A DNA stretch of 35,970 nt, from IMG/VR virus record IMGVR_UViG_3300030390_002240, positions 1 through 35,970 of that record; one strand, given 5' to 3'. Under the pieces are notes generated by a model. That model was given only the letters and a program-made list of their open reading frames with translations, was not told the origin of the DNA and ran no database searches. The DNA comes from a virus. Positions 130 to 21,800 of the stretch are shown here, in pieces; within the stretch, counting starts at the first letter, position 1; every line of letters starts with the position of its first letter. The position numbers and the translations under genes were made by a program.

Positions 130-1179
130 TTAAAATATTACATAATTTACACCAAACTTAAAGTCATACCACTCTCTATTCCAATACTTGTTATATTTCC
201 CCTCAACAAAGTAACCTAAATGTTTTGTTTGCTTGTAACCAAGTATTAAACCACCATTATAATCTAACCATTGACTACCCTCGTATTTATGATAAGAGTA
301 ATCGTTACCCCCTTCTAAGTGATAAGGCATAACGTTAGCCCAAGCGTGTGACCAAAATGATTTTGTGTAGTGATAATAATCAAAACCAACAACAATAGAG
401 TGTTGTATTATTTGATCTAACTCATTACGTTTTCTTTCAGTATAATCAGCTAACATTGTAGGTATAACAACCTCTTCCCAAACCTCTTTGCTTGTTGCAA
501 CGAGTTCTCCTTCAGGAGAAATATACTCACTAGCAGCTACATTGACATTGTAGCCTTCTTGTAGTGCTAGGTAAGTGTAATGTATATTGCCATTGCTAAG
601 CACCCACTCTGCTAAAGGATCGTAACCATAAGGTTCAGATAACCTTTGAGCAAGCCCAGCATTAAAGGACAATTTGTCATTAACTTTATATCTATATCTT
701 TCTGACGTTTCAAGATATTTAATATCAGCAAAACCATCTTCTAAGTATTCACCTTTTAGTATATACTTATCATCTACAAATCTTATAAAGTGATGCTGAT
801 CTAAATATTCATTACCTTGTTGTCTTTTGTAATCTACTTCGAATAAAAACTCTAAGCCACGTACTTTACCCACGTTAGCACCATCTGACCAAGAGTCTTC
901 TGTGCCATCATAAAAAGTACTAGCTCTATTTTCATAACCAAACCTTGCGATCTTACGTATACCTAAAGCTAAGTTGTAATCATACGGCGTTTTTACTGTT
1001 ACAGTATTTAAACCATCAGTTACAGAAAACACATCTACATCTGATATTGAATTACCACCGTTAGCTGCAGCATAAAACGTAGCAAATTTAAAATACTTTT
1101 TAAAGTTTTGTGAACAACATTTTTTTGGCGTAGCGCAAGCAACAAGTGCTATACACATTATTATTATTAATTTTTTCAT
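130..1179 (-). CDS. Exported outer-membrane beta-barrel-like protein (349 aa)
   Basis: The protein starts MKKLIIIMCIALVACATPKK: a basic start, a hydrophobic core, then L12-V13-A14-C15, which fits a lipoprotein signal (lipobox). A signal peptidase I site after the CCSQ at 21-24 is an alternative. The mature part alternates polar and aromatic/hydrophobic residues in short segments typical of transmembrane beta strands, and the chain ends in FGVNYVIF with a terminal phenylalanine, the usual mark of outer-membrane barrels. I see no enzyme motif. Its ATG overlaps the stop of the 3472-residue ejection protein (ATGA), so the two are translationally coupled. A phage-encoded surface protein could alter the infected cell, for example in superinfection exclusion, assist lysis, or be a virion part; this is inference. 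The barrel fold is fairly likely; the function is unknown. Confidence 0.7.
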   Translation of the reverse strand: MKKLIIIMCIALVACATPKKCCSQNFKKYFKFATFYAAANGGNSISDVDVFSVTDGLNTVTVKTPYDYNLALGIRKIARFGYENRASTFYDGTEDSWSDGANVGKVRGLEFLFEVDYKRQQGNEYLDQHHFIRFVDDKYILKGEYLEDGFADIKYLETSERYRYKVNDKLSFNAGLAQRLSEPYGYDPLAEWVLSNGNIHYTYLALQEGYNVNVAASEYISPEGELVATSKEVWEEVVIPTMLADYTERKRNELDQIIQHSIVVGFDYYHYTKSFWSHAWANVMPYHLEGGNDYSYHKYEGSQWLDYNGGLILGYKQTKHLGYFVEGKYNKYWNREWYDFKFGVNYVIF

Positions 1180-4100
1180 ATATTAACTACTCTTCTTTTT
1201 GATTTCTTTGGGTTTATAACTCTACGATCTATAATTTTTCTACTTGATTTTTTTCTATCAATAATTCTTCTACCTCCAGCTGAAGTTGCAGATTTTTGTT
1301 TTCTATTTAAACCAACGTCCCATCTATTCCAACCAAGCACCATTGCTATTCTTTGCCAAATAGCGTTTTGACTATCTAATGATTCTGATAAATTATTAAC
1401 TTTGTTAATAGCTCTGTTTAAAGGTATATTTGTACCAGCTTCAACAACACCACTTATAGCCTCAGCACCTAACATCCACTGTCCTTCTTCTATTTCGTCT
1501 CTGTTAAATTTATAAGTTTGCAAAGCGTTGTACATTTTTCTTAACTTTATTCCAACTGGTGGTGAAAAGTTTGCAAATTCTAAAACTACATACTCATAAT
1601 CAGCTCTACCGCCTTTATCAGCTTCTATATTAAATCTTCTAACCATGTTTTTAATAGTAGAGACAATAGCACCATAAATACCTATACCTCTTAAACTACC
1701 ATCAAGCATACTATTAAGCATACGCTCTTTTTTACCCTTCAAAAATTCTTCTTCCTCGTCATCATCTAAAAATGGTAAAGCAAATAATGCCGACTGTAAA
1801 GAGTAAAATATTAAGTTTTGAGCAAAACCGTAGTAAATTATTTTAGAAACATGAGACTTAGCATCACCTCTACCATTTATTAAATCAAGAAAAGCTTTCT
1901 TTTGAATTCTAGAATACTGCATAGGCGTGTTTTGAAAAGCTAAAACTAATCTACCTAACACAGAAGCTTGCTCTTGAGATATTAAATCTGGCCTAGACGA
2001 CTGCTGTGTTTTTTCAGCTATTTCTTGAAAATCAACAAATGCTTTTTCTTTAGCATCAGTCTCTGACATACCTTCAGATAAATATTTATTTATTCTATTT
2101 CTATAAAACGTAGCACCACCAGAAGCTATAGCAAAACTATCAGCCATTTGCGTAGGTAAAAATCCTTTTTGAAGTATAAACCTTATTGCTGCATTTGTTT
2201 TACCAGTAAAACCTTTTGTCCTAGAAACACTTTGCATTAATTCCGCAGCGTTTAAATCTTGTTGTAAACCAGATCTTCTTTGCTTTAACATGTCTGAGTT
2301 AAACAAGAAAGAAAAATCTTCCCAGTATTGTCCTTGATTAGCAAACGCGCTTGCTGCGTTAAATAAATTATTGTCTTCCCAATTAATAAAGTTAACAGCG
2401 GATATAGTTTGTAGAACAGCGGATCTTGCGTTGAAAAACATGGTAGCACCAATAGAACCATTGATGTAGTTCATAAAATTATTTACCATTTTGTTTTTAC
2501 CAATATTTCTATTAGTACCGTTTTCCATTCGCCACAATATATCTTGCAAAGCTTCTCTTACGTTTTTACCATACAAAGCCTCAATCTTATTCATGTTCTC
2601 TCCCTCAAGCTCACCTTTACCATTCCAGTCGCCAAAAATTGCTTTTCTATTCTCAACAAATTCTGTTAAATAATCTTTTCTTCTAACCTCATTACCTTTT
2701 TGGTTTATGTCATAAGAAATACCTTGAGAAATCCACTCATCAGTTGGCTCTACATAACCTTCACTTGCTCTTGATATTAAACCTAAAGAGTCTGCAAAAG
2801 CTTTAAGGTCCTGATCACTCTCAACAATGTCTAGTAAATTTGCAAGATCTGTTTCTGATAAACCAGGAACCTCGTAACCAGCTTTATTCCATAAGTAAAC
2901 TCTAACAGCGTCTTCAACAATAAAATCATTGTTTAGTATTAACTCTTTTAACCTTTTTCTTAACCCAGATTGTTTTAATAAATCTTTATACTCGTTAGAA
3001 GATTGTTGTTTTGCTGTGTTTATTTTGTTATGAGCTTTGGCAAAAGGTCTTAGTAATATTTCTTCAAAAAACTTATAATCAAGATCTCCTTGAACTCCTT
3101 TACCTATAAAATTGTATAATAAACCTGCGAAGTCTTCAGCTGAAGGTGCTATCCATAATTGAAACCTACCTTTTCCTTCACCTCTTTTTTCTCCTTTAGT
3201 TTTAGAAAATCTTTTTTCAGCATCAACACCACTTTTTCTTTCAAGCATTTCATTAAATTGTCTACTATAATTAATGCTTTGTTTTCCTTTAGCTTGTCTA
3301 ACTTTTGACTTAATATCAAATTGATCTAAAACGTTTTTAACTACTTGCACATTTTGCAAGGCGTCATCAGCAAAATATATATCGTTGTAACCATCACCAA
3401 CCTTATCTACTATCCACAACGCTTTTGATTCTGGTGTTGAATTAGCAAGCCCAGTTATATTTTCTATAGGTATATCTATACCAACTCCTTTTAAAAACAA
3501 CTGTATAGACGCGGCTGAGTTAACTGGCCTAGCTGTTAATATAAAATTATCTTTTATACCAAACTTTTTAATTCTATTAATAAACTTTTGTAAAAAAGGA
3601 CCAGGTCTACCATCTACAACTTTGCTAAATTCTGAGAAATCATAAACATAACCTTGCTCTAAAAGATCTGCTCCTTTAGCAGCAAACTCCTCTGCTGTTA
3701 GCTTACCAGTTGTACCATCTGGAGTTGTAAACAAAACTTGTGAATTACTACGAGCTAAAGTGTCGTCAAAATCCCATATACTTATACCTTTGACTTGATT
3801 GTCTTTAGCCATTTGATCAGACTTTCTAATAGCTCTAGTGTATGATATTGAACTTTTAGAATTAGCAGCTGCTGATGTTTCTTTTTGTAACCTAACATAA
3901 CCATCACCATGTCTAGTCTGCTTACCATCCAAGCTTATAATAACTTTTAGCTCTGGATCACCTAGTGTTTTTTCACCATACATTCTACCAAGTGCTCCTT
4001 TTAAATCACCAAGTTTTTTTCCTTCTTCGTAATTTTCTTGCATTAAATATTGCATACCCATTTTGGAAACAATTTTGTCCATTTTTTTAGGTATTATATT

Positions 4101-7100
4101 TACTACAAATTCTTCAAAAATATTTTCAAGATCTTTTTCTACGTTTTCAGCGTTGTTAGATTTTACTATGTCTGCTATTTTAAGCATTAACTGGTGATGC
4201 GGTGTTAAATGATCGTATTCTAATTCTTGACCAACTTTACTTATGTCACCAGTGTATTTACCATTAACCATTAATCCTTCAGCCATACCATATACATAAG
4301 CAGCTTTTCTTGATACAGACTCCATACTACTACCAAACATAAACAACTCTTGCACAACATCCATCTCATTAAACAAATCGTCTTGATTATTGTATCTTTC
4401 AGTTGCTATTTTAACCATAAAAGTTATTAGCCTTCTAGCTTGCATTGCTTGTTCTTTCCTGCTTTCAAAATCAAAACTACCTTTTTGCATTTCTTCAATA
4501 ACGGCCTTAGAACTTTCTGAATAACCTTTTTCAATTCCTAAATCTTTTTGAATTTTGTTATTGTATTTTGTATCTCCTAGTTTAAACACTGTATTAGCTC
4601 TGTTTACCAAAGCTACATAATCACTTGCGCTAAAAGCTACTTGAGAGTATTGTTTTGTTTGTCCACGCTCGCTTGTGCTTTTAACAAGTCTATAACTACC
4701 ATCAGACTTTGGCATAAAAGTATTGTCACCTAAAACCCCTTGACTAGAATACATAGCCTTCATCATGAACAACCACTCGTAAGCCTCTTTCTTACTTAAA
4801 TTACCGGACTCAACAAGTTTTTCTATTTCTTTTACTTTGTTTACAAGGTTTTTTCTACCGTTTATAATACCTTTTTTAGTAAACGCAGCATTTTTAGTAA
4901 GCGTTCCACCATCAGGACCAGTCATACCAAACTTACCGAAAACATCTATATCGTTTTTTTCTTTACTTTGTAAATTCTCTTGTACAAATTTATCTAAACC
5001 TCTTGGCACTTCCATGCCCATTATTTCGTAATTAGCTTTTATAGTTCCGTATTGAGTTAAAAGACCTGTTGCACCAAACAATTGATTTGCTAATTCAATA
5101 GCACCATTTACTTTTTTACCTTTAGCATCAACACGATTTAATCTATCACCAAAAGTGTTTTTAAATATATCTTTTATTTTACCCACTAGCTCCTCACCAA
5201 TATATCTATCTTCTATTAATTCTATTTCTTCTTTAATTACAGATAATTCTTCTCTAACTATAGCTTGCTGTGCTTGTGTAGCATATCTACTAAAGAATAC
5301 ACTTTGAGCCATTTTAGACTTACCGTCTTCCATGTTAGCTCTTACTAAATTGTCAAGATCACCTGTTCTTTTAGATACATCAACTATAGTTTGTATTGTT
5401 GCAACGGTACCTATTATATTTAGCATAGATATAACTGATTGTTGAGCCAACCTATCTTCTCTAAAAGATTTACCGTCAATTATACCTATCATACTTTCTA
5501 ACAATGCCACATCTACAATAGGTTTTTTATGCCATATAAAATTGTTACGAACCCGCTTACCTTTATTGTAAAAATCTTTATATTTAGTTCTTGATATTCC
5601 AGTTGCTTCATAGGTAGATGTGTGACCCTCTGGTAGTATAGCTCCAAGAAACTCCATACCTAGTTTTTTTAGTGCCATTTGAGCATTTAACAACTCGTTA
5701 GAACCTCTTTGCTTTTGTCTTCTTAAGTTTTTAGCAAAAGGTTTTTTAGAGTATGGACTTAACTTTTCAGCATCAACACCAAATCGCTTTGCAATAACTT
5801 TATAAAGGATATTTGGCATGTCTTTATAAGACTTGTTTAAATCTATTATTTTACCTTCACCGTCAATAAACCCTAACTCATCTAGTTCTTTTATTCTAGC
5901 GGCTTCTTTTTCTTTTGTTTTAGCTGGTCCTTGATTTATTAATTCAAAACCTCTTGTTATAACTTTATTAAACTCAGCAAGTAAACCTAATTTTTTCCCA
6001 ACGTGCACCTTACCATCTAACTCTTCGTCTTGAACGTTGTCAGCATCAGAGTCGTCTATTATGTTAGCAACATCTTTCATATCGCCAACATCTTCACCAG
6101 TTCTGTCTTCAACCTTACCTTTTTGTTCTTCATTGTAAACATCTCCAGCTCTAAAACTTACTCTTGAATTTAAATAAGCAAAAAAGTCATCATTTTCAAG
6201 GTTAAAACCTAGTATATCACTGTATAAAGCAGAGTAAACTCTTTTTACAAAGTCTTTTGTTTCTTCTGGTGATCTTGCTACTTTTAACTTTGCAGCTATT
6301 AGTCTGTCAAAAATGTTTAGTTGTTGAATTATTTCAGCAGCTTTTTTAGCTCCTCCATTTTTCCAAGACTCAATAGTATAACCTAAAACTAAATCTCTTA
6401 CTAACTGCTCGTCTTCACTAAAATCTTCAAAGTCTTCTTCGTTAATTACATTTAGCTCTGGGTCTCTTTCAAATTCAATAGAAGCTTTACCTTCAGTTTG
6501 TTTTTCTATAGGATCTTGTTCTACGTCAACACTAGAGTCAATACCAACTTCTTTTTCTAAAGCTCTCTGTTCTTGAACATCTGCCATTTGTTGGTTTTGT
6601 CTTATAAACTCTGAGCTAACATTTACTAAACCTTGATTTTTTATTTTGCTAAAACCTTTACTAAACCTACCTCTCATAAACTCTCTGTTGTAATCTTTAA
6701 TAAAGTTTATAACATCTTGAGTTGATTTAATTTTCCAATTTAAACCTGTTTCTCTACCCATACGTCTAAACAAAGATGTTACTTGTCCTAAAAACCCAGT
6801 TGACATTTGAATATCACCTTGAGCTAAGGCTTCTGAAAATATAGTTAAAACTTCTTCCCACTGAATTTCTCCAGTTGATTTGTTTAAATAAACACCATCT
6901 TCCATTCCTTTCATAAACTTACCACCAACATAGCTTTGTGAAAAGCTTTTGCCATACGTTTGTTTTAGTTTGTTTAATAAAGCAAAACCCATTGCTTTTA
7001 TAATTTTCTTACCTTGTTTTGTTTGAGAAGTTTGAAATAACAAAGCATGAAAAGATTCGTGTCCAGCAACAAAGAAGTTACCACTACGAATAGCAGCCTC

Positions 7101-10100
7101 TTTGTTTATAACAAAAAAGAATTTACCATCTTTTTGGTAGAAAAAACCGGGTTGAACAGATCCATCTACTAAAGCAACTTTAGAATCATTTAATGTTCTT
7201 TTGTCTTTTTGAAGTTTTTTAATTTTCTTTTTATTCTTTTTATCTTTGTGCTTGACGTTTGACTCTTCGTCTGTAAGTTCTTGTATTTGTTTATCAATTT
7301 CTTCAATTCTCTGATCTACCTCGTCGTTTATTTTTTGTATTTGTATACTTCTTTTCTCAGACTCATTATCGTACTCGTCTTGATCTAAAACAATTATAGA
7401 TCCATTTTCAACATCACTTTTTGAAGTTCCAAATAAAGAAACCATATTGTTGATGCTTTTGTTTAACAACTCTACACCACTTTTAACACTACCAGTTTCT
7501 TGAATTTGCTTGTTAATTTCTTTTATTTGATTGTTAATCTCAGTGGCTCCAGCGCTATAAGGATCTAAACCAGCAACTTGTTTTTGTAATTTTAATTTTT
7601 TCATTACAAGATCAACCTCTTGAACTGTAGAGTATTTTGATAATTGAGACTGCGCCTGTTGTATTAACACAGCTTGCTCTTTTGTAGCTTTTAATTTTTT
7701 TATTTCTTGCAAATGTATTTGCTTAAGCTCTCTACCAGCTTTTGTTCTTTTATCAGGTATGTTATCCATAGCAGACTGAATAGCATTGATTTGATTGTCT
7801 ACTTCAGTTATTAGTTTTCCTGACTTTTTAGCGTAATAAGCATAAACTTTTTGTTTACGCATTCTCATGTTTCTTCTTCCTTTTTGAGCACCTAGACCTC
7901 CAGTTAAGAAAAAAGTTGCACTTATCATTTGACCAACAGCGTTTACATCTTGTATTTCTGGCGAGTAATTAGTTAAAAAGCTACTTTTAACAACGTCGTT
8001 TAAAGCCATGTCTAAAAATTCTTCACCAAACTCACCAATCATATCAGGTATTAAAGTTGCAAAAGAAGGGCCAATAGTTTTTTTCCAGTTTGTTATAGCT
8101 TTTAAATCTCCAGATTTTAACTTTTTTAAACCAGTTATTAAGTTGTTTTGTGCCTTTTTACCCATTAGTGTATTAAACCACTTGTATTCTGGTATTATTG
8201 CTTGAGAAACACCTGTCGCAAGACTTGTTGCTTGTGCGTATAAAAATGCTTTTTCAGGATCAAGGCCTCTTGCCCTACCATCAGCCATTCCTTCAAAACC
8301 AATAAGTTTTTGATTTAGTTTTACCTGCGCTAAACTTCTATTTAAAGTTTCACTACCTTTAACCTTGTAACCTAAACGACTAACCCAATTCATGCCGTCT
8401 TTATTAAGCTTATAACGCATGTCACCTTTACCAATTCTATTGGATTTAGCAATTTTCTTTATGTTAACTTTAGCTTTTGCTAATTCTTGAACGTATGATA
8501 GCCCAGTAAATATTGAGTGAGCAGTGTGATACAAAAACTCACCAGGGTTTTCTGACCTTAAATTATCCCACGAGAAAAACTCTCCTAACGCACCTGGCGC
8601 ATCTTTTAAGCTTTCAATTTTTCCAAAAGCGTCAAGATTTTTCCAAGGTGTAGCGTCTTTATCATAAGGTAAATAACCCTCAGAAGGAGCTATAAGTTCT
8701 AACAAGTAGTCTGTAACCAAACTTTGTGGACCATAACCACCTCCTACATTTTCTTCTTTTTCTAAATAACCTAAACCTTCAAAAAGAGCTAGTGTAAACA
8801 AGTTGTTTCTAACACCACCTTTTAAAACAGCGTTAGATGCTTTTAAACTACCTCTTAGTTGAAGCTTAGCATTGTAGTAAGACATTCCTATATTAAAGAT
8901 ATGACCAACAACCGGTATGTGTTTTAACCCGTTTTCCCAAGCTTTAAACTCTCCTTCTAAGTTTTCAAAATTGTGCTTGTTAAAAACACCTTCTGCAGCA
9001 TTGAAATTTAAAGCTTTAAAAACAGCCTCGTACTCTGCTTTTAAATCATCTTGCCTTTGATTTAACTCTACTTTTTCTTTTTCTAAATTATCATAAGTGG
9101 TAAGTAAACTTTCTCGTTTAGCATTTAAACCTGGTAAACTGTTGTTTATTTCTTCTTGAGCTTTTTTAGCTACATCTTCATTTATGTAACCAGTAGTTCT
9201 TTCAGTGTTGTCTGGGTTACGCTCAAAAGTTGAGTTTTCACTTACAACTTTTTTAAGATCGTTTAGTCTTTGTAACTCAGTCTCGTAAATATTTTTTTCT
9301 TTTAATAAATCAGTCTCAGCATCATTAAAAAGATTTATGTCGTTTTCTAAGTCACAACTTTGGTCTTCTGTTTTTTTAACGTATTCATTTAAAACATACA
9401 TTTTAGATTTATAAATAATTTCATTTTTCCTGTCTTTATTTAAATCTAAAGCTAAGTTATTTTTTAACCTTGCTGTTTCTGTGTTTGTAAAAAACATTAA
9501 AGATGCTGCTTCCATCTCTTTTGCTAGTAATCCAAAATCTAAATTTTCAGACTCATGACCACCAAAAAGAGCAACAACTTTATTAAGATGAGAACCCGAG
9601 TATTTTGAAAGAGAAAAAATTTCAGTAAACAATTCTCTGTTGCTAGCCATAAGTTCTCTAGCTTTAGTCACGTCTTCAGTTTCGGAAGGTGTTGCATCTT
9701 GAAAAGCTAACTCACCATCAATATTGTTTTTGCTAGCATAATTTAACCACTCTTGTTTATTGCTAAATTTTGCCTTAGGGTACATTTGTGTTAAATGTGC
9801 TAAAGCAGAGTTTGTAGATTTTTTATCGTGCTCTTCTACTAGTTTAACAGCGTTTTCGTGATCTTTTTTGTCTAGTATATTTTCAGTTGATATATCTAAA
9901 CCATTTTCATTAGCACCAATTTTAACACCAGCATCTTCTAATCCGTTTTTTGTTTCATCAACATACTTAATATCATCTTTACTCAATATCACTAACTGAG
10001 CACCAGCACCAGTTGGTCCACCACCTCCACCCATTCTGTCAAGACCAAAACTTTCTGTAGTATTGTAGTTTTGCACATTGGTCACCACTCTTTCATCCGG

Positions 10101-11594
10101 TGCCTCGTTTAAATTGTTAACATCAACATTTTCACCTTTTGCAAGTTGATTTATAAGATCATCATCAACCTCACCTTCAACTTTAGCTTTAGATTTATCT
10201 GTAATGTCAGGAAAATCATCTACGTCGTCTTGTTCTTCCTCTTCTATTATTTCGTACTTTCCTTCTTCAACCTTTTTCTTTTTTGGTCCTTGACTAGTTG
10301 TTAGCTCAACATTTTCATTTAACCCATCAAGACTTTTGTCTAAATCGCTTAGTTTACTTAATTCATTTAAAGTGTTTTGTGGGTTTTCTAAATAATCTTG
10401 AACAGTAAAACCTCTTGCTACTAGTTTTTCTACATATTCAGGGTTGTTAGCATTGGCTTCAACCTGTTTGTCTTTGTGTTTAAACTTCTCAGTAGTTTCA
10501 GTAGTTTCAGTAGTTTCAGCAGTGTTAATTCCTGTTGTAATATTACCACCAGTTGTTTGTGTACCGGTTGGTATTCCAGAAATCACCTCATCGCCAAATC
10601 CACCAGCACCATTATTAGCAACTTTTTTTGGATCAAGAAAGTTACCATTACTTTGTACTTCTACGTTACCATCTAAATTAACGTTTTTATGTTTGTTGTT
10701 TTTATGTTGATTGTTTTCTTCCACTACGACCGTAGTAGGATCAGTTTTTTTATCGACTTGATTTAACTGTGAGTTGCTATAGTTAACATTGTTATCCATG
10801 CTTAATTTTTCCCCAGTTACTGGATCTACTATGTTTGGTTTAAAACTAACATCGTTTCCTGTTGGTGAAGAACCTAATACTGCGGATAAGCTGGTTTTAA
10901 AATCTTTATTAATACTGTTTGACCAATTAAAATCAAACTGCTGGTTACCAGTAATTTTTTGCTTAAATTTAATAATAGGACCGTTTGGTATTGAGTCTTG
11001 GTAAACTTGAGAAGTGTTAAAATCATTTTCAGCAAACTCATTTAAATTACCACCATAAAAAAAGAAATTTTTATTATCTTTACCTTGGCTTGCAGATGTG
11101 TTAAAGTTGAAATCAGATCCTTTCTTTATTTTTTTAGCCTTAGTTGAGTCAACAGCTTCAAAATGATAATGTGGTTGAGCCACACCACTAGAATCAACAG
11201 CAAGCCTTTCATCAATCATTCTAATGTTGTGCTTTTTAAAAAGAGCTACACCATTAGGTGTAAGATCTGGTCTAACGTACTCTCCATTAACTTTAGCGTT
11301 TGGATCAAAGTCTTGACCAAACAAATACTTCATTAATCCAAGATCATCTTCAGACTTTATACCTAAATCAAACGCATTACCAGTGAAATGAGCACTTCCT
11401 GTTTTGTAGCGTTTATTCCCTTTAGAGTTTACTCCAGGGTGAGTGTCTTCATTTCTTGTAGTAGAAGTTATAGTGTAACCTAAATCTAAACCCTCTACTT
11501 CTTGAAAAAAAGCGCCAAGCTCTTGAGCGACACCACCACCTTGGTCTCCTCTCCTTCTCCAAATGCTACCTTTTTTTTCCGCTTCTACTGTCAT
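1176..11594 (-). CDS. Giant multidomain ejection (internal virion) protein, 3472 aa, with M15 peptidase, HExxH and HAD domains
   Basis: This gene fills almost a third of the window. Domains in order: an M15-type peptidoglycan peptidase motif set at about 30-150 (SAHFTGNAFD with H69 and D76, and PHYHFE with H144); a low-complexity acidic stretch with TTE repeats at about 355-370; a coiled-coil region around 1270-1480; an HExxH metalloprotease motif (H1512, E1513, H1516, with candidate third ligands E1581/E1588); a HAD phosphatase at about 2600-2770 (DFDDT at 2608, T2687, K2724, DD at 2743); a C-terminal region with membrane-like helices that resembles the polyvalent-protein domains of phages; and a basic repetitive tail (3442-3471). 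It follows 260- and 601-residue proteins in the order of T7 gp14-gp15-gp16, where gp16 also begins with a peptidoglycan hydrolase. It is probably injected with the DNA. T7 gp16 is 1318 residues, so this protein is far larger. Assignment to the ejection role is inference from order, size and the N-terminal hydrolase. Confidence 0.8.
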   Translation of the reverse strand: MTVEAEKKGSIWRRRGDQGGGVAQELGAFFQEVEGLDLGYTITSTTRNEDTHPGVNSKGNKRYKTGSAHFTGNAFDLGIKSEDDLGLMKYLFGQDFDPNAKVNGEYVRPDLTPNGVALFKKHNIRMIDERLAVDSSGVAQPHYHFEAVDSTKAKKIKKGSDFNFNTSASQGKDNKNFFFYGGNLNEFAENDFNTSQVYQDSIPNGPIIKFKQKITGNQQFDFNWSNSINKDFKTSLSAVLGSSPTGNDVSFKPNIVDPVTGEKLSMDNNVNYSNSQLNQVDKKTDPTTVVVEENNQHKNNKHKNVNLDGNVEVQSNGNFLDPKKVANNGAGGFGDEVISGIPTGTQTTGGNITTGINTAETTETTETTEKFKHKDKQVEANANNPEYVEKLVARGFTVQDYLENPQNTLNELSKLSDLDKSLDGLNENVELTTSQGPKKKKVEEGKYEIIEEEEQDDVDDFPDITDKSKAKVEGEVDDDLINQLAKGENVDVNNLNEAPDERVVTNVQNYNTTESFGLDRMGGGGGPTGAGAQLVILSKDDIKYVDETKNGLEDAGVKIGANENGLDISTENILDKKDHENAVKLVEEHDKKSTNSALAHLTQMYPKAKFSNKQEWLNYASKNNIDGELAFQDATPSETEDVTKARELMASNRELFTEIFSLSKYSGSHLNKVVALFGGHESENLDFGLLAKEMEAASLMFFTNTETARLKNNLALDLNKDRKNEIIYKSKMYVLNEYVKKTEDQSCDLENDINLFNDAETDLLKEKNIYETELQRLNDLKKVVSENSTFERNPDNTERTTGYINEDVAKKAQEEINNSLPGLNAKRESLLTTYDNLEKEKVELNQRQDDLKAEYEAVFKALNFNAAEGVFNKHNFENLEGEFKAWENGLKHIPVVGHIFNIGMSYYNAKLQLRGSLKASNAVLKGGVRNNLFTLALFEGLGYLEKEENVGGGYGPQSLVTDYLLELIAPSEGYLPYDKDATPWKNLDAFGKIESLKDAPGALGEFFSWDNLRSENPGEFLYHTAHSIFTGLSYVQELAKAKVNIKKIAKSNRIGKGDMRYKLNKDGMNWVSRLGYKVKGSETLNRSLAQVKLNQKLIGFEGMADGRARGLDPEKAFLYAQATSLATGVSQAIIPEYKWFNTLMGKKAQNNLITGLKKLKSGDLKAITNWKKTIGPSFATLIPDMIGEFGEEFLDMALNDVVKSSFLTNYSPEIQDVNAVGQMISATFFLTGGLGAQKGRRNMRMRKQKVYAYYAKKSGKLITEVDNQINAIQSAMDNIPDKRTKAGRELKQIHLQEIKKLKATKEQAVLIQQAQSQLSKYSTVQEVDLVMKKLKLQKQVAGLDPYSAGATEINNQIKEINKQIQETGSVKSGVELLNKSINNMVSLFGTSKSDVENGSIIVLDQDEYDNESEKRSIQIQKINDEVDQRIEEIDKQIQELTDEESNVKHKDKKNKKKIKKLQKDKRTLNDSKVALVDGSVQPGFFYQKDGKFFFVINKEAAIRSGNFFVAGHESFHALLFQTSQTKQGKKIIKAMGFALLNKLKQTYGKSFSQSYVGGKFMKGMEDGVYLNKSTGEIQWEEVLTIFSEALAQGDIQMSTGFLGQVTSLFRRMGRETGLNWKIKSTQDVINFIKDYNREFMRGRFSKGFSKIKNQGLVNVSSEFIRQNQQMADVQEQRALEKEVGIDSSVDVEQDPIEKQTEGKASIEFERDPELNVINEEDFEDFSEDEQLVRDLVLGYTIESWKNGGAKKAAEIIQQLNIFDRLIAAKLKVARSPEETKDFVKRVYSALYSDILGFNLENDDFFAYLNSRVSFRAGDVYNEEQKGKVEDRTGEDVGDMKDVANIIDDSDADNVQDEELDGKVHVGKKLGLLAEFNKVITRGFELINQGPAKTKEKEAARIKELDELGFIDGEGKIIDLNKSYKDMPNILYKVIAKRFGVDAEKLSPYSKKPFAKNLRRQKQRGSNELLNAQMALKKLGMEFLGAILPEGHTSTYEATGISRTKYKDFYNKGKRVRNNFIWHKKPIVDVALLESMIGIIDGKSFREDRLAQQSVISMLNIIGTVATIQTIVDVSKRTGDLDNLVRANMEDGKSKMAQSVFFSRYATQAQQAIVREELSVIKEEIELIEDRYIGEELVGKIKDIFKNTFGDRLNRVDAKGKKVNGAIELANQLFGATGLLTQYGTIKANYEIMGMEVPRGLDKFVQENLQSKEKNDIDVFGKFGMTGPDGGTLTKNAAFTKKGIINGRKNLVNKVKEIEKLVESGNLSKKEAYEWLFMMKAMYSSQGVLGDNTFMPKSDGSYRLVKSTSERGQTKQYSQVAFSASDYVALVNRANTVFKLGDTKYNNKIQKDLGIEKGYSESSKAVIEEMQKGSFDFESRKEQAMQARRLITFMVKIATERYNNQDDLFNEMDVVQELFMFGSSMESVSRKAAYVYGMAEGLMVNGKYTGDISKVGQELEYDHLTPHHQLMLKIADIVKSNNAENVEKDLENIFEEFVVNIIPKKMDKIVSKMGMQYLMQENYEEGKKLGDLKGALGRMYGEKTLGDPELKVIISLDGKQTRHGDGYVRLQKETSAAANSKSSISYTRAIRKSDQMAKDNQVKGISIWDFDDTLARSNSQVLFTTPDGTTGKLTAEEFAAKGADLLEQGYVYDFSEFSKVVDGRPGPFLQKFINRIKKFGIKDNFILTARPVNSAASIQLFLKGVGIDIPIENITGLANSTPESKALWIVDKVGDGYNDIYFADDALQNVQVVKNVLDQFDIKSKVRQAKGKQSINYSRQFNEMLERKSGVDAEKRFSKTKGEKRGEGKGRFQLWIAPSAEDFAGLLYNFIGKGVQGDLDYKFFEEILLRPFAKAHNKINTAKQQSSNEYKDLLKQSGLRKRLKELILNNDFIVEDAVRVYLWNKAGYEVPGLSETDLANLLDIVESDQDLKAFADSLGLISRASEGYVEPTDEWISQGISYDINQKGNEVRRKDYLTEFVENRKAIFGDWNGKGELEGENMNKIEALYGKNVREALQDILWRMENGTNRNIGKNKMVNNFMNYINGSIGATMFFNARSAVLQTISAVNFINWEDNNLFNAASAFANQGQYWEDFSFLFNSDMLKQRRSGLQQDLNAAELMQSVSRTKGFTGKTNAAIRFILQKGFLPTQMADSFAIASGGATFYRNRINKYLSEGMSETDAKEKAFVDFQEIAEKTQQSSRPDLISQEQASVLGRLVLAFQNTPMQYSRIQKKAFLDLINGRGDAKSHVSKIIYYGFAQNLIFYSLQSALFALPFLDDDEEEEFLKGKKERMLNSMLDGSLRGIGIYGAIVSTIKNMVRRFNIEADKGGRADYEYVVLEFANFSPPVGIKLRKMYNALQTYKFNRDEIEEGQWMLGAEAISGVVEAGTNIPLNRAINKVNNLSESLDSQNAIWQRIAMVLGWNRWDVGLNRKQKSATSAGGRRIIDRKKSSRKIIDRRVINPKKSKRRVVNI
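1182..1271 (-). repeat. Basic C-terminal repeat tail of the giant ejection protein
   Basis: The last 31 residues contain four copies of a five-residue unit R-(R/K)-(I/V)-(I/V)-(D/N): RRIID at 3442, RKIID at 3452, RRVIN at 3457 and RRVVN at 3467, joined by KKSS and PKKSK linkers. The tail is strongly basic. It could bind DNA or act as a packaging tag that draws the protein into the capsid; both are guesses. Confidence 0.7.
3285..3797 (-). other. Domain: HAD-superfamily phosphatase in the giant ejection protein
   Basis: All four HAD motifs are present in order and with normal spacing: ISIWDFDDTLA (nucleophile D2608, acid/base D2610, T2612), FILTARP (T2687), K2724 in a TPESKALW context, and IYFADDA (D2743, D2744). 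The strand-loop pattern around each motif is also right. The domain is therefore likely an active Mg2+-dependent phosphatase acting on a small molecule, nucleic acid end or protein; the substrate is unknown. Confidence 0.8.
6810..7082 (-). other. Domain: HExxH zinc metallopeptidase-like segment in the giant ejection protein
   Basis: Residues 1510-1520 read AGHESFHALLF, a textbook HExxH helix (H1512, E1513, H1516) with hydrophobic neighbours. About 65-70 residues downstream is WEEVLTIFSEALAQ, where E1581 or E1588 could be the third zinc ligand of a gluzincin. Zinc peptidase domains are known in large phage polyvalent proteins, where cleavage of the protein itself or of host factors has been proposed. 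Which of these applies cannot be told from sequence. Confidence 0.6.
10492..10518 (-). repeat. Short tandem repeat encoding TTE units
   Basis: Three exact copies of the 9-base unit GTAGTTTCA (plus-strand reading) lie here in frame and give the ETTETTETTE segment of the giant ejection protein, in a flexible acidic stretch between its peptidase and coiled-coil parts. Copy-number change would keep the frame. Confidence 0.8.
11145..11507 (-). other. Domain: M15-type peptidoglycan peptidase at the N-terminus of the giant ejection protein
   Basis: Residues about 30-150 hold the S-x-H-x-x-G-x-A-x-D signature (S67, H69, G72, A74, D76) and, about 70 residues later, PHYHFE with H144 as the third zinc ligand, as in D-Ala-D-Ala carboxypeptidases and phage endolysin endopeptidases of family M15. 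The usual acidic residue three places before the last histidine is not present (P141 there, H142 two before), so the general base may lie elsewhere. In a virion protein this domain would open the cell wall at entry. No separate endolysin gene is visible in the window. Confidence 0.75.
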
Positions 11595-11610
11595 ATATTA
11601 TATTAAATTA

Positions 11611-13416
11611 TTAAGAACCAGTAAAGTTAAAGTTACCAGTATTATTAAAGTTAAAAGGCTTTTCTTTGTTTTTTTCATCGTTTAACAAAACTCCACTAGC
11701 AGTAGAGTTAGTGCTTGTGTTTGTATTTGTATTTGTATTTGTATTTGTATTATTGTTAACGTTACTATTCATGTTATTATTCTCAGACACGGGACTTGCT
11801 AATATACTTACCTTTGGTGGAGCTTCTTTGTCTTCAGAAATTTCTTCTTCATTTGTATTTATAGAAGCTAAATCATAAACATTTCTATCTAATCCCCAAG
11901 TTTTAGGATTTTCGTTTAAATTTCCTAAATTAGTAAACATACCTTTAGTGTTTTGCTTAATAAACGTTTTAAATGCTGACATTTCAGAGGTGTTATTAGG
12001 ATTGTAGTATTTAGCAGTTCCATTTTCGTCATCACCAACCATGTACAAAACATTTTCATCTTTGTCTTCAACAATTTCAACGTTAATATTGCTTGAATTA
12101 AACAAGTCTACTATTTCGTTTGAAGCATTATTAGGATCATTTAAATCGTTATATAAAGCTTTATCTATAAACATATCAGTATAAAGCTCTTTTTTAGCAA
12201 TTTGACCTTCAGCTGGAGTGTTAAAATATTCTATTTCTCTACCAGTACCATCAGTTGCATTATCTCCTAAAAGAACTTTGCTTTCACTTATTGCTTGATT
12301 TACCTTTTTAGTTTCTAGACCATCGGCTGTAGCTTTTGAGTAAAACTTAGAAAAATTTCTTAAATTAGCGTCATTACTATTTCTGTCTCTTAATATAGCT
12401 TCTAATGCTTGTGCTCTGTTAACTGGAGCTGAATCACTTTGAGCTGTACTAGGATCGCTAATCGCGTTTAAGGTTGAAACGTTAGTGTCTACAGGGTATG
12501 AAGATATTGGTTTTCCATTGTATTCTAACTCATCACCATTTAAATCTTTGTAATAATTTTCATCAAGACTACCACTAATAAACATATTACCAAAGCTAAT
12601 ATTTTGACCATCACCAGATATATCTCCAAATATCATATCCATTTTTTGATTATAGTTTGGTGCTGAACCATCAGGACCACTAGACATCATATTGTTATAT
12701 AAAGTATTGGCATTACCATCAATATCAAAGCTTTCCGAAGCACTTCGTAATTGTGTTAAGGTTTTGTTGTTGGAAACAGTTTTGTTCCAGCTTGCTAATA
12801 TTGTAGCATGACCTTCTTTATACTCAGCCGCAACTTTTGGCGGAGCAGGAAATTTAGTGTTAGGATCATTATCATAAGTTGTACCGTCATCCATAACATA
12901 AGTTTCAAAACCATCACTGTTAAAATCTCTTTTTGCTCCAGCAACTATTTCTTTAGCGTGATTTAATTCATTTGGATCTTGACCTGAAGAGTATGAGTTT
13001 GTTTGTCTTATCTTTGAAGCCTCAACATTGTGCTTATACTTTTCTGTTTGTGCCTGTGTAATTCTATTCATTTTAGAAATACCAGCATTGTAACCAGCTT
13101 GAGCTTCTAAATTACTAGGATCATCTACTAAAGCTCTAGCAAAGTCTTGAACCTCTAAAGACGTAGCGTTTATTATAGGTTGTATTTGAGTTCTTTCTTC
13201 TGCAGTGACAGTAGGTATCATACTAACTTCGTTAAACTGTTGCATAACATTATCAAACTTTTTTTGCAATACAGCATTTTTATCTGCAGCACTTTTAACA
13301 ACTTTATTTATAGTACCATCAATAACTTGGTTTATTTCGCTAGTATAGCTTTTACCTGTTTTTTGACCAATTGCCATACCTGTAGCCATTGACCCATATG
13401 CGTTTGTTTTTGCCAT
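11611..13416 (-). CDS. Probable internal virion/ejection protein (601 aa)
   Basis: I recognise no enzyme motif. The first ~130 residues (MAKTNAYGSMATGMAIGQKTGKSYT onward) look helical, the middle is polar and rich in Asn, Asp and Ser, and residues about 545-580 are a low-complexity Asn/Thr linker coded by a hexanucleotide repeat. The chain ends in NFNNTGNFNFTGS. Its ATG overlaps the stop of the 260-residue gene by one base (TAATG), so translation is coupled, and the giant ejection gene starts 16 bases after its stop. By position and size it corresponds to T7 gp15 (747 residues), the middle ejection protein. That is inferred from gene order, not from sequence similarity. A plain structural role is the alternative. 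Confidence 0.7.
   Translation of the reverse strand: MAKTNAYGSMATGMAIGQKTGKSYTSEINQVIDGTINKVVKSAADKNAVLQKKFDNVMQQFNEVSMIPTVTAEERTQIQPIINATSLEVQDFARALVDDPSNLEAQAGYNAGISKMNRITQAQTEKYKHNVEASKIRQTNSYSSGQDPNELNHAKEIVAGAKRDFNSDGFETYVMDDGTTYDNDPNTKFPAPPKVAAEYKEGHATILASWNKTVSNNKTLTQLRSASESFDIDGNANTLYNNMMSSGPDGSAPNYNQKMDMIFGDISGDGQNISFGNMFISGSLDENYYKDLNGDELEYNGKPISSYPVDTNVSTLNAISDPSTAQSDSAPVNRAQALEAILRDRNSNDANLRNFSKFYSKATADGLETKKVNQAISESKVLLGDNATDGTGREIEYFNTPAEGQIAKKELYTDMFIDKALYNDLNDPNNASNEIVDLFNSSNINVEIVEDKDENVLYMVGDDENGTAKYYNPNNTSEMSAFKTFIKQNTKGMFTNLGNLNENPKTWGLDRNVYDLASINTNEEEISEDKEAPPKVSILASPVSENNNMNSNVNNNTNTNTNTNTNTSTNSTASGVLLNDEKNKEKPFNFNNTGNFNFTGS
11721..11750 (-). repeat. Hexanucleotide microsatellite coding for an Asn-Thr run
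   Basis: Five exact copies of TTGTAT on the plus strand (ATACAA on the coding strand) lie in tandem, flanked by degenerate copies. They encode alternating Asn-Thr in the C-terminal linker of the 601-residue protein. A 6-base unit keeps the reading frame, so slippage would change linker length without breaking the gene. Confidence 0.85.
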
Positions 13417-14198
13417 TATTTGATATTCTTTTTCATTTCCTCAAAACTAAATTTTCCTTGTGCATTAAATCCTCCAGCTAAACCACCAGCAATATCACCT
13501 ATACCACCTATTAAAGCAGCTTGATTTGCTGCTACAGCTTGGTTAGCTTGTTGTAACTGACCAGCCTCCATGCCAAGTAAAGTTGATTGTTTGCTTGCTT
13601 CTGCTTGTTGAGACCTGTAAGCACCTTCACCTCTAAGCTTGTCAGTGTCAGCAAAGCCTTTAGCCGTAAGAGCAGAGTTTTGGTTATCTTGTTGAGCTGT
13701 CATTAAATCAATTTTAGATTGAGCTCCTGCTTGTAGTTGTTGGTTTTTAGCCTCTTGCATACCTATAGAAGCAGATGCTTGTTGCATTGATTGACTTTGT
13801 TGATTTGCTAATGCCTGTGCTAAACCACCTATACCTGATCCACCTGCAGCACCAGCCATGTTTTGCATTATATTTGCTGCACCTTGTTGTGATTGCTGTG
13901 CCATAAACTCTGCTTGCTGTGTATTAACAGTCATGTCTTCATAAGCATTTTCTACACCTTTAAAAGCATTGCCAAGGTTTTGAAATCTATTTCTTACACT
14001 ACCAAAAGTATTACTAGTGTCTAATCCTTGATATATACTTTTTTGTGTATCAAAAGCATCTTGAGCAGTTTGTTGCTGTCCGTCTAGCTTGTTTTTTTGT
14101 GCAAGACTCATACCAACTTTCGCTAAACCACCCACAGCTGTTAGTAGTGGTAGTATAGCGTAATTAACTTGCGGTATATATTCTATGTATTCTATCAT
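13416..14198 (-). CDS. Probable internal virion protein, Ala/Gln-rich (260 aa, T7 gp14-like by position)
   Basis: An N-terminal hydrophobic stretch (about residues 13-32, YAILPLLTAVGGLAKVGMSL) is followed by a long Ala/Gln/Ser-rich helical region (about 40-215, with many NQQ, QQS and QAG steps) and a second Gly-rich hydrophobic stretch near 224-243 (ALIGGIGDIAGGLAGGF). Two membrane-prone ends around a helical body fit the smallest protein of the ejection trio, the role of T7 gp14 (196 residues), which inserts in the outer membrane. It is the first of three consecutive genes of rising size (260, 601, 3472). The first ATG was kept; the leader is A/T-rich. The function is inferred from composition and order. 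Confidence 0.7.
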   Translation of the reverse strand: MIEYIEYIPQVNYAILPLLTAVGGLAKVGMSLAQKNKLDGQQQTAQDAFDTQKSIYQGLDTSNTFGSVRNRFQNLGNAFKGVENAYEDMTVNTQQAEFMAQQSQQGAANIMQNMAGAAGGSGIGGLAQALANQQSQSMQQASASIGMQEAKNQQLQAGAQSKIDLMTAQQDNQNSALTAKGFADTDKLRGEGAYRSQQAEASKQSTLLGMEAGQLQQANQAVAANQAALIGGIGDIAGGLAGGFNAQGKFSFEEMKKNIK

Positions 14199-15888: not shown

Positions 15889-18800
15889 TTATTGTTGTGT
15901 TTGATATGCGCTTCCACTTGCAACAGTTATTGTAGAAGTGCTATTATTACTAGGGAAAGTACCACTGTAAGATACTCTTATTTTTACTTTTGTACCATCT
16001 TGAGTTATTGCAGCGCTAGCTGTTATACCGCTTGAGTTTGCAACGGTAACAGCAAAATCAGTAAAAGAAACAGCCCACTGTATTCCGTTAATAACTTGTG
16101 GGTGTATATAAAAATCTATTGTTTGTGTTTGTGCCATTGTTCCAGCATCATCATTAAAAGACAATGTTAGGTCTGTACCTGTAGAGTCTGAAGAACTATT
16201 GTTTAAATTCCATTTTTTAGGAGCAATATTTGATGCTATGTCAACAGCTGTCACAGTGTGCGTAAAATACTTTGCATAAGAACCTATGTTAACCGACGCT
16301 GGCGATCCAATACCTTGAATGCTAAAAGACTGTAGCTTTAAGTCGTCAATATCATGATCATCACCTTGTATAAAGTTAAAGTATTTACCTTCTTTTTCTA
16401 CAAAAGTAGTTATTGAACCTGACTCGTTTTCTGTTGCTATTGCAGAAGCTTTCCAACCAGAAGTTCCCTCGTAGTTTATAGACTTAAATGATTTTATAGA
16501 ACCTGGCGCATCGTTAAAAACAAACTTAATACTAGAGTCATACTGCACCCCATAAAAATTCATTCTTGTTAAGTTTTTGTTGTGTAACCAAAGTTCACTA
16601 ACACCATCACCATTTGTATCTGAAAAGCTATAATAATTTCCAGCAACTGAAATACTGTTTTCTGGAATAAACGACTTTAAACTTGTCCAGCCATTTACTT
16701 TTTCTGTAAAACTAACTGTTTTACCATTTAACGTTATGTTGTATAGATCTTTACCTTCGTCATAACCACCTATAACGGTTATAGAGTTGCTTAGATTGTC
16801 TTTAAAGAAGTCAGACATACCTTTAGCTGCTACATCTGTTATACCATCACCAGAAAGCCTTAAAACAGCGTTTCTTTTTTTATCAGCATAATACATTCTA
16901 TATCCAAAATTTGCAAAAGATTCAGGGTTTGTTGATATACCGTACTCACCAGCAAAAGGTATAGTTTGGCCTAACACTTTATTAGTGGCTATTAACTGCG
17001 GGTTTCCATCGGCATTAAATAAAGCGTCTTTATTTGCTAATACTTTTAAAGTTTTGTCTTCACATAACACTACAACGTTGGTATTTCTAGTAAATAGCTT
17101 TTGTATACTACCATAGTCAGGGTTTAAATCTTTAGTTATTTTTTCTGCTTGTATAAATTGGTTTAACCTATTAACACCACTTGTTTCGTTGTATATACCA
17201 GAGTATATCATAGAGTATTTTCTATGATCTTCTTCATATGTTTGCTCTAGTATTGTAGATACAACAGGTCCTTTATCCATAAACACAGCATTAAAGTCGT
17301 CAAAAAGCCTGTTAGACTCAACCCCATTACCAAAGCTAAAGCAGTTATGCCAGTCTAAAACAACTGATGGTATGTTATATATACCAGACACAGGTGTTCC
17401 AGTTGATGCACTTAAAAGTCCACCGCCAACATTAACACTACTACTCGTGACAACGCCACCTATTATATCTTCTTCTGTTTTAAATACATGGCTATAAACA
17501 ACATCTCCATTTGCGTCTTTTAGGCCAACTTCAATTTCTGTTCCAGTTTTGCAATTTTGAAATAGCTGAGCTGGATCAACTTGAAATTGGTTGTTCGATG
17601 TGTTATTAGTATCTGAAACTATTATAGTTGCTGTTGTTCTAAATATTGCCAAAGAACCAGTAACACTTGTATCTGCTAATCTAATAAACATACCGTTTTT
17701 TAAAACTATACTGCTAGTTGGTGTTTCGTAAAACAAGTTTAAATCTGCTCTTTCTTTTGGTAAAACTTCAAAAACCGCAGGTGTTTGAGTTGAAAACGTT
17801 TTGTCACCAGTATCAAGCTCCGCTATAGATATTACACATGAGTTTGATAAACTATGATCAACTCTATTCGCTTTTGTATCAGCTTCTGATATAGAACCTG
17901 TGGCAGTACCAAAAGTAGCATTTGCACAAGTTAAACCCATAGGTGTTATAGCTGCTTTTCCACTTCTAAAAGCTGTAGAAGGATCTGTTGGGCTCCAAAC
18001 AATAGGTTTATTTAATTGTAAGTCGACACATATACCTTGGTTATAGTAAGATTCTTTATCATACTGTCCGTCTTCCCAAACAGCTCTTGAAAGTTCAGAA
18101 GAACCTTTACCACCAAGACCATTGTTCCACCAATCTATATCGGCACTAGCTCCAAAACCATCTGTAAATTTACCAAAACCAATATCTCGTAAATAAATAG
18201 TAGACATTCCAATTGCACCAGCGTGATTGTTAAACACAGCGTGATTTCTAACTACATTTACAATAGTATATACCGTAGCGGTTGGATCTCCAATAATTCT
18301 AAACTGAGTACCAGTTCTTGTCAAGTGATTATACATACCATACTTATCACCTAAATTACCAACTGTAGCTTGATTTGATGGTATTCCAAACCACTTAAAA
18401 GAACAAGCGGTGTTTCCAACAACAAAACCATGTCCTCTTCTAAGCGAGTTTGACACAGCCGTGTGATATAAATCAGCTTCGTCTGTCCAGCTCAAAGAAC
18501 TATCAATACACATTGAAGGATTGTAAGTTATACCATCTGTGTTTTCACCATTATAACCATTTATCCAATAAGCATCATCAGCAAATTCACCTAAACTACC
18601 TTTTTTAAAACCTTCTGTAGTACCTTTTACCCTTACACCATGTGTTGTATAATCTGCAATTTTTAAGTTACCATTAATCATAAATGTTAAACCGTGAGTC
18701 TTAAACAGTGTTGTGTTACCTGTAAACCCTCCAGGTTTTAATCCAAGTTCAGGCGTTTTATTGCTAAATAAAAGTAAATCTTCTAATATACTTGCAGCAC

Positions 18801-21800
18801 CGTGATAATTTACATCTGTTTCATCAGAGTAGTTTATTACATTTGCCTCGTTTCCTGAAGCATTATCGTTTAACCAGCTATGAGCCCAAGTTGCAGGTGA
18901 AGATGTTTTACTTTTCCATATTTGAGCTGTAGCTAGAGCTTCAGTTATGTTTTTGTTTAGTACAGAGTCTCTTTTTATTTTTAAGAAAAACTTCCCTTTA
19001 AATTCATCACCATAACCTTCTTGAGTTTCTTTACTAAACTCACAAACAAATTTGTTGTCTTGTGGGTTTGGTATTACAGTTGAATTTTCAGTGTAAGCAC
19101 TATCATCTGTTAATCTTCTTATTGCAGCAACTGGCGATTCTCCAAGAAAAGAAACATCACCACCAAAAGACTCTTTAACTTCAAATATAAAAGACTCATA
19201 AATATCTTTAAACATAACGGCTTGACCTTCTGTAAATTTTGTAAACTTTTCGCTTAGTTTAACAGAAGTTCCGTTTACAATCTCTTTTACGGTAATTTTT
19301 TGACCAAAAGCTGTTATGCTTGATGACTCACCAGTACAAATGGCCATACCCACAGATATATTTGTTGAGCTAGCAACATTAAGAGTTGTGCTTGTCATTA
19401 CCGCTGTTGTTGTTGTTCTTACAAACCCGTCTGTTTCTACTACATTTGTGCCTGATGCTATTCTGTTTAAAAATTGTTTTCTATATATTTTAGAGGTTTC
19501 GTAATGCTTTGAAGCACTTCCATCTGCTAAAGATTTAAACTGAACATATCTGTCTTTAAAATCATAAAAAACTCCATTAAGCTCACAAGATTCGTTAAAC
19601 AAATCTAATAAATCATTATCTCCGTCTAAATCTTTTGCTGATATTAAAAACCTACTATAACCTTTAGAAGGATATTGACCTGATTGTAGTATATATTTTT
19701 GATTTTTCTTTTGTGTTGTGTTGTCGTCAGAGTCTACTTGTGGGCCTACAGAAAATGTAGTTGCCGAGTTTGAAATACCAACCTCCTCTTTTTTATACTT
19801 TATATAGTCAGGTGCGTTTGATTCTTTGTCTAACACCTTGTATTTTACAGTAGAAGTATTATCTTGTATTGCTACAGTGTCTTTTGCATGAGATTTTTTA
19901 AGAACAATATAGTCTCCAATAGAAACTTTATTTGTATCTGAAGAAGGAAAAGAAATCCAAACATTTTCTTCTTCCTCAGCATTGTAAAAACGATCCATAG
20001 CAATATTGTAAAATTCAGAAGAAGCGTCTTTAACCCAGTACTTGTAATGTGTTGCCCAGTCTGGTGCTTTTGAATTAACTTTTACACTAAAAGAATTTGC
20101 ACAGCTAGAAAACTCTTGCCCAACTTTTACAACTCCTGATTCGTCAGAAAAAACAGGTGTTTGTCTACCAAATCTATCTAAATAAGAAACTCCAACCTCA
20201 TAATCTCTTATTGATTTAATTGACTTAGTCGCAGTGTTATTTTGTATATCGTTTTTTTGAAGTTTTACATCAATATTTACAGGTATATCAGAAATATTAT
20301 ATTGTTGAACATAGTTACCATATAGTAATCTATTAGCTGTTACCTCTTGTGCTTTTGCTTTTCTAGGAACGTTATCGTAAGATCTTAATAGTTGATTAGA
20401 TGGTAATAAAGATTTTATTTCTTCTTTTGTTATAGTTATTTTACCATCGTTGTAAAGATTATCTAAGTCTGATTTTTTAAGTTTTTTTACAACATAAACG
20501 CTAGTTTCGTTAGATTTTTTAGAAATTAAATCTAAACCAATTACATCCTTAGGCTTGTTTCTAAAACCACTTATTTCTATTTTTCTTAAATTATTAAACA
20601 TGGCTTTGTTATAACCATCTTCAGCATCAAAAACATAACCTATTTTAGACTCTGGTAAAAACGCTATTGGAGTAAAAGGAGAAAAAGAAGAGTATTCGTT
20701 ATCTATGTACTTCCATCTATAAGCAAATCTAGGCATTTCAAACTCGTATATAGGATCTTGCTGCTCTCTTAAAGAAGTCCAGCTGGTAGTAGCATCTCCT
20801 GTTATCGCACCTATTTTACTATCAATAGATATTACTTCAGTGTTAAAAGTTTTTCTTCCGCCGTTTGGTGTTGTTCCATACCTACCACCAATTACATAGC
20901 TTGTATTTGTAGCTTTTTTAATAACTATATCATCTATAACACCGTTCCATCTAGTGTCATTGTATAATTTTATTTTAGAAAGACTTAATGCTCCATCAGC
21001 AACAGCTCTTTGCTTCCAGTAAACAGTTTTTGTACCAGTAGTATATGTGTCTAAAAATATTTCGTTAGGGCAATGATGTTGACCATCTACAAAAGTACCT
21101 AGTAATAATTTTAAAACACCTTTGTCAGTGCCATTTCCAGTTGTAGCTGTTGTCACACCGTAAGTCATTTTGTATACCTCACCGTCTACTAAAGCTTCTG
21201 ATAAAGTATTCTCAGCAAAACCCCACTCACTGTTTGGACTTGTTAAAGCGCCACTTGTTACAAAAAATGCAGCATCTGTAGCACTTGTAGTTATAGCCGT
21301 TCCTGAAGTAGTTCCTGAGCTACCACCAAAAGAAGTCCAGCCAGTAGTAGAACTAAAATCACCATTTTGAACCTTGTCATTACCAACAACACCATCACCT
21401 ACAGCATTTACTTGTGACTTAGCTATTTTAGTAATGTTAGAAGTACCAGCAACTTCTTCTAAAAGCTTTAATCTAACAACAATATCACTGTCACTTTCAG
21501 GATCACCTATGTCACCTATATTAGTTTTTAATTTTATAATGTCTCCAGTTTCGTAAGCAACATTTCCATAAAAGTTAAAAGGCTCAATAGATATAATTCT
21601 TGGCCCAGACATACAGATTATACTGCTAATTGTTATAACACCTGTAGTGTTTGCGCTTGCAAATATTTTTAACTGTTTACCTGTTGATTTAAAAATATAG
21701 TTAAACTGCTTTGTAGACGTGTTGGTTTGTACAACCTCATAACCAATACCACTTGCATTACTACTAGCATCGTCGTGAGAAAAACCAATTTCTCCACTAC

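Follow-up and report, generated by a model that had tools for sequence, protein, structure and literature searches.

Large polyvalent proteins, in which a zincin metallopeptidase is the most common domain, have been proposed to be injected into the host together with phage DNA (Iyer et al. 2017, PMC5512222). In the N4 vRNAP, a large helical domain comes after an HExxH domain (PMC12633501), and the protein contains no cysteine, an absence that may matter for injection (PMC2784036, PMC3915230). A giant protein encoded in a virus record of 35,970 bases, analyzed over its full length and called the window here, is best explained as an ejected protein that carries a wall-cutting domain, a zincin, and an HAD phosphatase and is packaged as part of a three-protein module. 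This reading as a whole is very probable.

The main genes of the window all lie on the minus strand and follow the sequence terminase, portal, capsid-type protein, 2427-residue muzzle, small genes, 260-residue protein, 601-residue protein, giant, and 349-residue signal-peptide protein (Table 1). The virion-gene cluster resembles those of Cellulophaga and Flavobacterium podophages, and the relatives of the terminase are MW202828 (63% identity), Elemovirus, Cellulophaga phages phi18:3 and phi38:1, and Tenacibaculum phage Gundel_1. The phage is read as an uncultured podovirus of Bacteroidota type with a crAss-like tail. As in the window, a giant closes the virion cluster of MW202828, Elemovirus, phi18:3, and phi38:1, and the Gundel_1 giant (gp74) is located two genes before the terminase gene. 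A blastp comparison of the window giant with the giants of the other isolates compared gave no match, which indicates strong divergence. At the other end of the window, a 314-residue protein with a LamG/concanavalin-like domain (PF13385, 2.3e-19) is encoded at 34949-35893 and adjoins a GroES-like gene at 33568-34149.

Table 1. Coordinates of the features discussed in the text.
Feature	Position in the window	Strand	Basis
349-residue signal-peptide protein, lipoprotein/outer-membrane type	130..1179	-	Sequence; 4-base overlap with giant
Giant open reading frame, 3472 residues, proposed ejected large polyvalent protein	1176..11594	-	Closes the virion cluster, also in isolates
Conserved C-terminal domain of polyvalent-protein type, all-helical (residues 2781-3472)	1179..3254	-	Identity in relatives; AlphaFold2; BFVD
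Residues 2590-2790, predicted HAD phosphatase (D2608, D2610, T2612 / T2687 / K2724 / D2743, D2744)	3225..3827	-	Conservation and predicted fold
Residues 1437-1651, gluzincin-type metallopeptidase (H1512 E1513 H1516 ... E1581)	6642..7286	-	HExxH and invariant downstream Glu
HESFH zinc-binding motif, residues 1512-1516	7047..7061	-	Sequence
Putative zinc peptidase domain of M15/LAS type in residues 1-165 (S67-x-H69...D76, H142-x-H144)	11100..11594	-	Motif set; weak hhalign to M15_3
Proposed second ejection protein, placed like gp15/gp72; 601 residues, 0 Cys	11611..13416	-	47% identity to L001 gene at same place
Proposed first ejection protein, placed like gp14/gp73; 260 residues, 0 Cys, hydrophobic N-terminal segment	13416..14198	-	Cys count; homologues in 73 loci
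Muzzle-like virion protein, 2427 residues, crAss_MUZ_C domain	15889..23172	-	PF25729 4.6e-11; phrog_14478 6.5e-142
Portal protein	28697..31120	-	phrog_6547 2.9e-152
Terminase large subunit	31123..33339	-	phrog_6681 5.4e-168; 63% identity to MW202828

The giant open reading frame starts with ATG, has zero internal stops, and encodes 3472 residues on the minus strand. The sequence-only reading of this DNA had assigned three motif sets to this single chain, and all three are present at the residues it gave: H69, D76, and H144 within SAHFTGNAFD...PHYHFE, HESFH at 1512-1516, and DFDDT (2608-2612), LTAR (2686-2689), and ADD (2742-2744). The number of chance copies expected from the composition of the giant is 0.0007 for S.H..G.A.D, 0.02 for HExxH, and 0.67 for D.D.T. 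As a single-sequence query, the whole giant retrieved nothing usable from Pfam, PHROGs, or the PDB, and its own sequence gave no clear match to cultured phages (tblastn, no match). Relatives were collected from IMG/VR by a peptide scan with the HAD region (18 loci) and by a profile scan that yielded at least 524 confirmed relatives, 80 of which were kept for analysis; a genome scan added 10 MAG contigs. Queries from two other family members matched the C-terminal part only in Gundel_1 (tblastn E = 2e-3) and the HAD part in a metagenomic phage of 462 kb (E = 1e-6). The family is large and apparently uncultured save for these remote matches.

In the HAD region, D2608, D2610, T2612, T2687, R2689, K2724, D2743, and D2744 are unchanged across 103-106 sequences, where motif IV was partly built into the scan patterns and motifs I, II, and III were not. 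The AlphaFold2 model of the domain (pLDDT 74, pTM 0.68) has a HAD fold. Foldseek comparison of this model with the PDB, a check proposed in the sequence-only reading, returned mostly HAD enzymes as top matches with probabilities of 0.98-1.0 and E-values just above 0.001. Because D.D.T alone is not significant, the assignment rests on the complete motif set (2608-2744), its conservation, and the predicted fold. Conservation and modeling together identify the HAD domain of the giant as real and intact and as a predicted phosphatase. This phosphatase appears to be the conserved core of the family, a feature described here for the first time from sequence comparison. A related HAD domain is encoded by the 462-kb metagenomic phage (LR756500.1, 143145-143654), and a stand-alone version of 170-180 residues is found at 10001-10519 of a Flavobacteriaceae MAG contig (L035).

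The nearest Pfam family of the HAD domain is DUF2608 (PF11019), which is matched by 11 of 15 members with a best value of 2.4e-5; the score of the window's own domain lies under the cut-off. The Foldseek matches include the DUF2608/Lem4 group and Pnkp1. In four relatives (L018, L019, L032, and L033) a P-loop kinase interrupts the HAD domain in the stretch that separates motif I from motif II; AAA_33/Zeta_toxin was tested in L018 and L033 and reached 4.7e-17 in L033. The kinase insertion favors a nucleotide or a nucleic-acid end as the substrate, and a nucleotide or nucleic-acid phosphate is the tentative first choice. The DUF2608/Lem4 similarity favors a phosphoprotein, which ranks second and is rather unlikely. 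The inserted kinases and the Pnkp1 match also suggest a more specific role, compatible with the best explanation, in which the HAD domain would be part of a PNKP-like nucleic-acid repair activity delivered at entry against RNA- or DNA-cutting defenses. That role is possible and somewhat doubtful, as the window giant has no P-loop kinase beside its HAD domain, no RNA ligase (PF09414) was detected in 25 related records, and both Pfam and Foldseek point also to the DUF2608/Lem4 group.

HExxH is present in 87 of 93 full-length relatives (giants of more than 2200 residues), where shuffling predicts 1.1, and it played no part in selecting these 93 proteins. Shuffling thus rules out a chance occurrence of the motif. 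HDxxH replaces it in five of the remaining six (L039, L041, L042, L057, and L092), and L052 is without either form. Alignment of 54 zincin copies with a mean column identity of 18% reveals invariant H, E, and H positions, which follow from the way the copies were selected, and a single invariant glutamate that was not selected, corresponding to E1581 of the window giant. The zincin profile also matches the Elemovirus giant (31 bits) and MW202828 (17 bits). The protease motif first read at 1512-1516 is substantiated by this conservation, which identifies the region as a gluzincin at the level of sequence.

The C-terminal domain of about 690 residues (2781-3472) has 39-84% identity across 53 relatives. 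Its AlphaFold2 model is all-helical (pLDDT 81, pTM 0.77) and has no meaningful match in the PDB. The BFVD matches of this model include proteins named 'Large polyvalent protein associated domain' with a probability of 1.00; TMq is ~0.35-0.48 for the polyvalent-named entries, at 11-14% identity, and reaches 0.66 among the remaining distant matches, with identities of 11-16% over all of them. The C-terminal profile also matches Gundel_1 gp74, a 'structural protein', with 34 bits. A search of the giant for an RNA polymerase found neither a DxDGD motif nor a Pfam polymerase match. The location of the giant in the virion cluster, and the fact that its C-terminal half is the best-conserved part, would also fit an internal or tail protein of purely structural function, with enzyme-like domains that are relics or structural elements. 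Relics would decay, and the catalytic residues are instead the most constrained positions, with HAD motifs I-III invariant and E1581 invariant in the divergent zincin columns, which makes a purely structural protein quite improbable.

The N terminus of the giant contains the M15/LAS pattern HxxxxxxD plus HxH (H69, D76, H142, and H144). Residues 1-165 have no significant match to an M15 profile or family in Pfam, and hhalign to a small M15_3 set gave P = 0.0025 over the S.H..G.A.D region at a probability of only 12%. DUF5715, a weak Pfam match, was rejected because the members compared did not show the motif. No clear second example of the domain was detected by the IMG/VR peptide scan, an IMG/VR DNA pattern, or searches of the PDB and 297 Bacteroidota genomes, and comparison with the MW202828 M15 protein and the Gundel endolysin gave nothing. 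The domain is also absent from the relative L008/L001, which is 83% identical in the C-terminal part. The M15 residues reported earlier are in place, without a significant profile match and without conservation in the family.

The window belongs to a five-member clade (support 100) whose N-termini differ. The window giant has the M15/LAS-type domain, L008 and L050 an NPGNI type, L055 a GH108 domain (2.5e-8), and L060 an SLT transglycosylase (2.9e-8). A Phage_lysozyme N-terminus is found in one further host, probably L081 by motif. In L008 and L050, residues 1-200 combine an NPGNI start with a WW/YKGKT...TYSG core that is conserved; this domain has no Pfam match and by position is probably another murein hydrolase. 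The presence of other murein hydrolases (GH108 and SLT) at the same place in close relatives supports action of the M15-like domain on the cell wall. The wall hydrolase of the sequence-only reading is retained as one of several exchangeable N-termini and does not characterize the family as a whole. Exchange of the entry hydrolase among close relatives appears from these sequences to be new. Restriction of the M15-like N-terminus to the window, with its absence from L008/L001 and the IMG/VR scans, could also mean that it is a chimera produced by assembly, or the outcome of a recent accident, and not a working part. This origin is very improbable, given that the upstream neighbors of the window giant and the L001 giant are orthologous (47%) and that relatives bear other hydrolases at the same site. 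Replacement is thus the rule in the window's clade.

The giant is the third and largest product of three consecutive genes (260, 601, and 3472 residues), an order that is the same in 87 loci and agrees with the size order of T7 gp14-15-16 and DEV gp73-72-71 (PMC8954989, PMC10925440). The trio (1176-14198) contains 1 cysteine in 4333 residues versus 23 expected from the other window genes (P = 2e-9). Across 87 related loci, cysteines per 1000 residues number 0.27 and 0.60 in the two genes that precede the giant (median 520 and 251 residues) and 5.4 in the third gene before it. Cysteine is likewise scarce in four isolates. The positive control, consisting of T7 gp14-16, N4 gp50-52, P22 gp7/20/16, and crAss001 gp45, gp46, and part of gp47, has 3 cysteines in 10,534 residues; other late genes have 160 in 20,955. 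The giant and the two preceding gene products resemble the ejection proteins known from T7, N4, and P22 in being nearly cysteine-free, which supports ejection, and the exclusion could reflect virion assembly and not passage through the envelope. Cysteine loss over exactly three genes, with a return to normal in the next upstream gene, is a possible general sequence mark for ejection modules in unannotated phages. In phi18:3, the annotation assigns three proteins (gp123, gp121, and gp120) to the virion on the basis of MS/MS; gp121 is the equivalent of the 601-residue protein, and gp123 is the positional counterpart of the giant and not a demonstrated homologue. Injection in the manner of T7 gp16, as suggested in the sequence-only reading, is supported by several independent lines, namely the position and size order of the three genes, the near absence of cysteine, the polyvalent C-terminal fold, and the phi18:3 counterpart, and is not accompanied by sequence homology to gp16.

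The giant is encoded among late genes, the virion proteases of other phages work during assembly, and no separate endolysin was identified within the window. These points are consistent with late action, in which the M15-like domain would be the endolysin, the zincin a maturation protease, and the HAD domain an enzyme of the producing cell. This alternative is improbable: the relative MW202828 has a separate M15 gene outside its giant, the cysteine exclusion is restricted to the ejection trio and does not extend over the whole late region, and an N-terminal hydrolase on a last-gene giant is the T7 gp16 pattern. Action at entry is the preferred reading.

The 349-residue protein encoded downstream of the giant has a lipobox-like start and a C-terminal aromatic residue of the outer-membrane type. 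Its homologue is found downstream of the giant in 63 loci at a median gap of 31 bases, and 42 of the 52 complete ones end in F, W, or Y. The L001 homologue is split, probably by a frameshift.

A course of events that would connect the computed domain identities, conservation, gene order, cysteine exclusion, and C-terminal fold match can be modeled on T7, N4, and the polyvalent proteins (PMC5512222), from which packaging, ejection, enzyme activities, and the order of steps are taken. The 260-, 601-, and 3472-residue proteins would be packaged in the virion as an ejection module. Following adsorption, the tail would open and the trio would be expelled through it, the giant probably in unfolded form. 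In the periplasm, the M15/LAS domain at the N terminus would cut peptide links of the peptidoglycan while the conduit forms, and the long downstream part of the giant would enter the cytoplasm. There the HAD domain would, ahead of phage gene expression, remove phosphate from a host or phage substrate, and processing of the giant (or of a host protein) would most likely fall to the zincin. The C-terminal helical domain may be the common scaffold of polyvalent ejected proteins.

A bolder proposal, offered as speculation, is that uncultured phages forming a very widespread group send a dedicated HAD phosphatase into the cell along with their DNA, when no phage gene has yet been read. The enzyme would disarm a host response based on phosphate, whether a nucleotide signal, a cut nucleic-acid end, or a phosphoprotein, and would be borne on a modular ejection protein whose wall enzyme is exchanged as hosts change. 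If so, an entry-delivered phosphatase without a characterized member is common to more than 500 environmental phage contigs, and the targets of phage dephosphorylation during the first minute of an infection become open to direct test. The polymerase-bearing plan of N4 vRNAP would then have a counterpart with other enzymes in the place of the polymerase and a wall enzyme at the tip that is exchanged among close relatives.

The giant resembles large polyvalent proteins (PMC5512222) in its disparate enzymes on one chain, its zincin, its putative peptidoglycan-cutting domain, and its C-terminal fold match. Unlike many of them, it has no recognized Pfam polyvalent domain (none above the cut-off); such a domain is common and not defining, so its absence is not counted against membership. 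Zincins and wall hydrolases are already known from polyvalent ejected proteins, whereas a HAD phosphatase is the conserved core in the family of the giant, and the main text of PMC5512222 has no mention of phosphatase or haloacid. The HAD domain is like the DUF2608/Lem4-like phosphatases, which are its nearest sequence family and among its top fold matches, and differs from them in sitting inside a giant virion-type protein and in its score below the family cut-off. The window shares with crAss001 (cargo gp45-gp50, PMC10172136) a muzzle-type tail, cargo genes directly after the muzzle, and low cysteine; the crAss001 cargo has RNA-polymerase-associated proteins, and none were found in the window. 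Like T7 gp16 (PMC8954989), the giant is the product of the last and largest of three consecutive genes, has at its N terminus the motif set of a putative murein hydrolase, and is almost devoid of cysteine. It differs in its hydrolase type, its 2.6 times greater length, its protease and phosphatase domains, and its lack of sequence similarity to gp16. Profiles of the three conserved domains of the giant had no match in T7 gp16, P22 gp16, or N4 vRNAP. The giant is therefore said to work like gp16 and not to be a member of its family. N4 vRNAP (gp50, with gp51 and gp52) and DEV gp71-73 have in common with the giant and its neighbors a length of ~3,500 residues, a single zincin-type HExxH, a large helical C-terminal region, near freedom from cysteine, and the same gene order. 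The giant is distinguished from N4 vRNAP by the absence of a recognized RNA polymerase and of detectable sequence homology and by the presence of the HAD phosphatase. These comparisons are best read as placing the giant in the polyvalent class, as an ejection protein like T7 gp16 and N4 vRNAP that bears a predicted phosphatase and in which the searches detected no polymerase.
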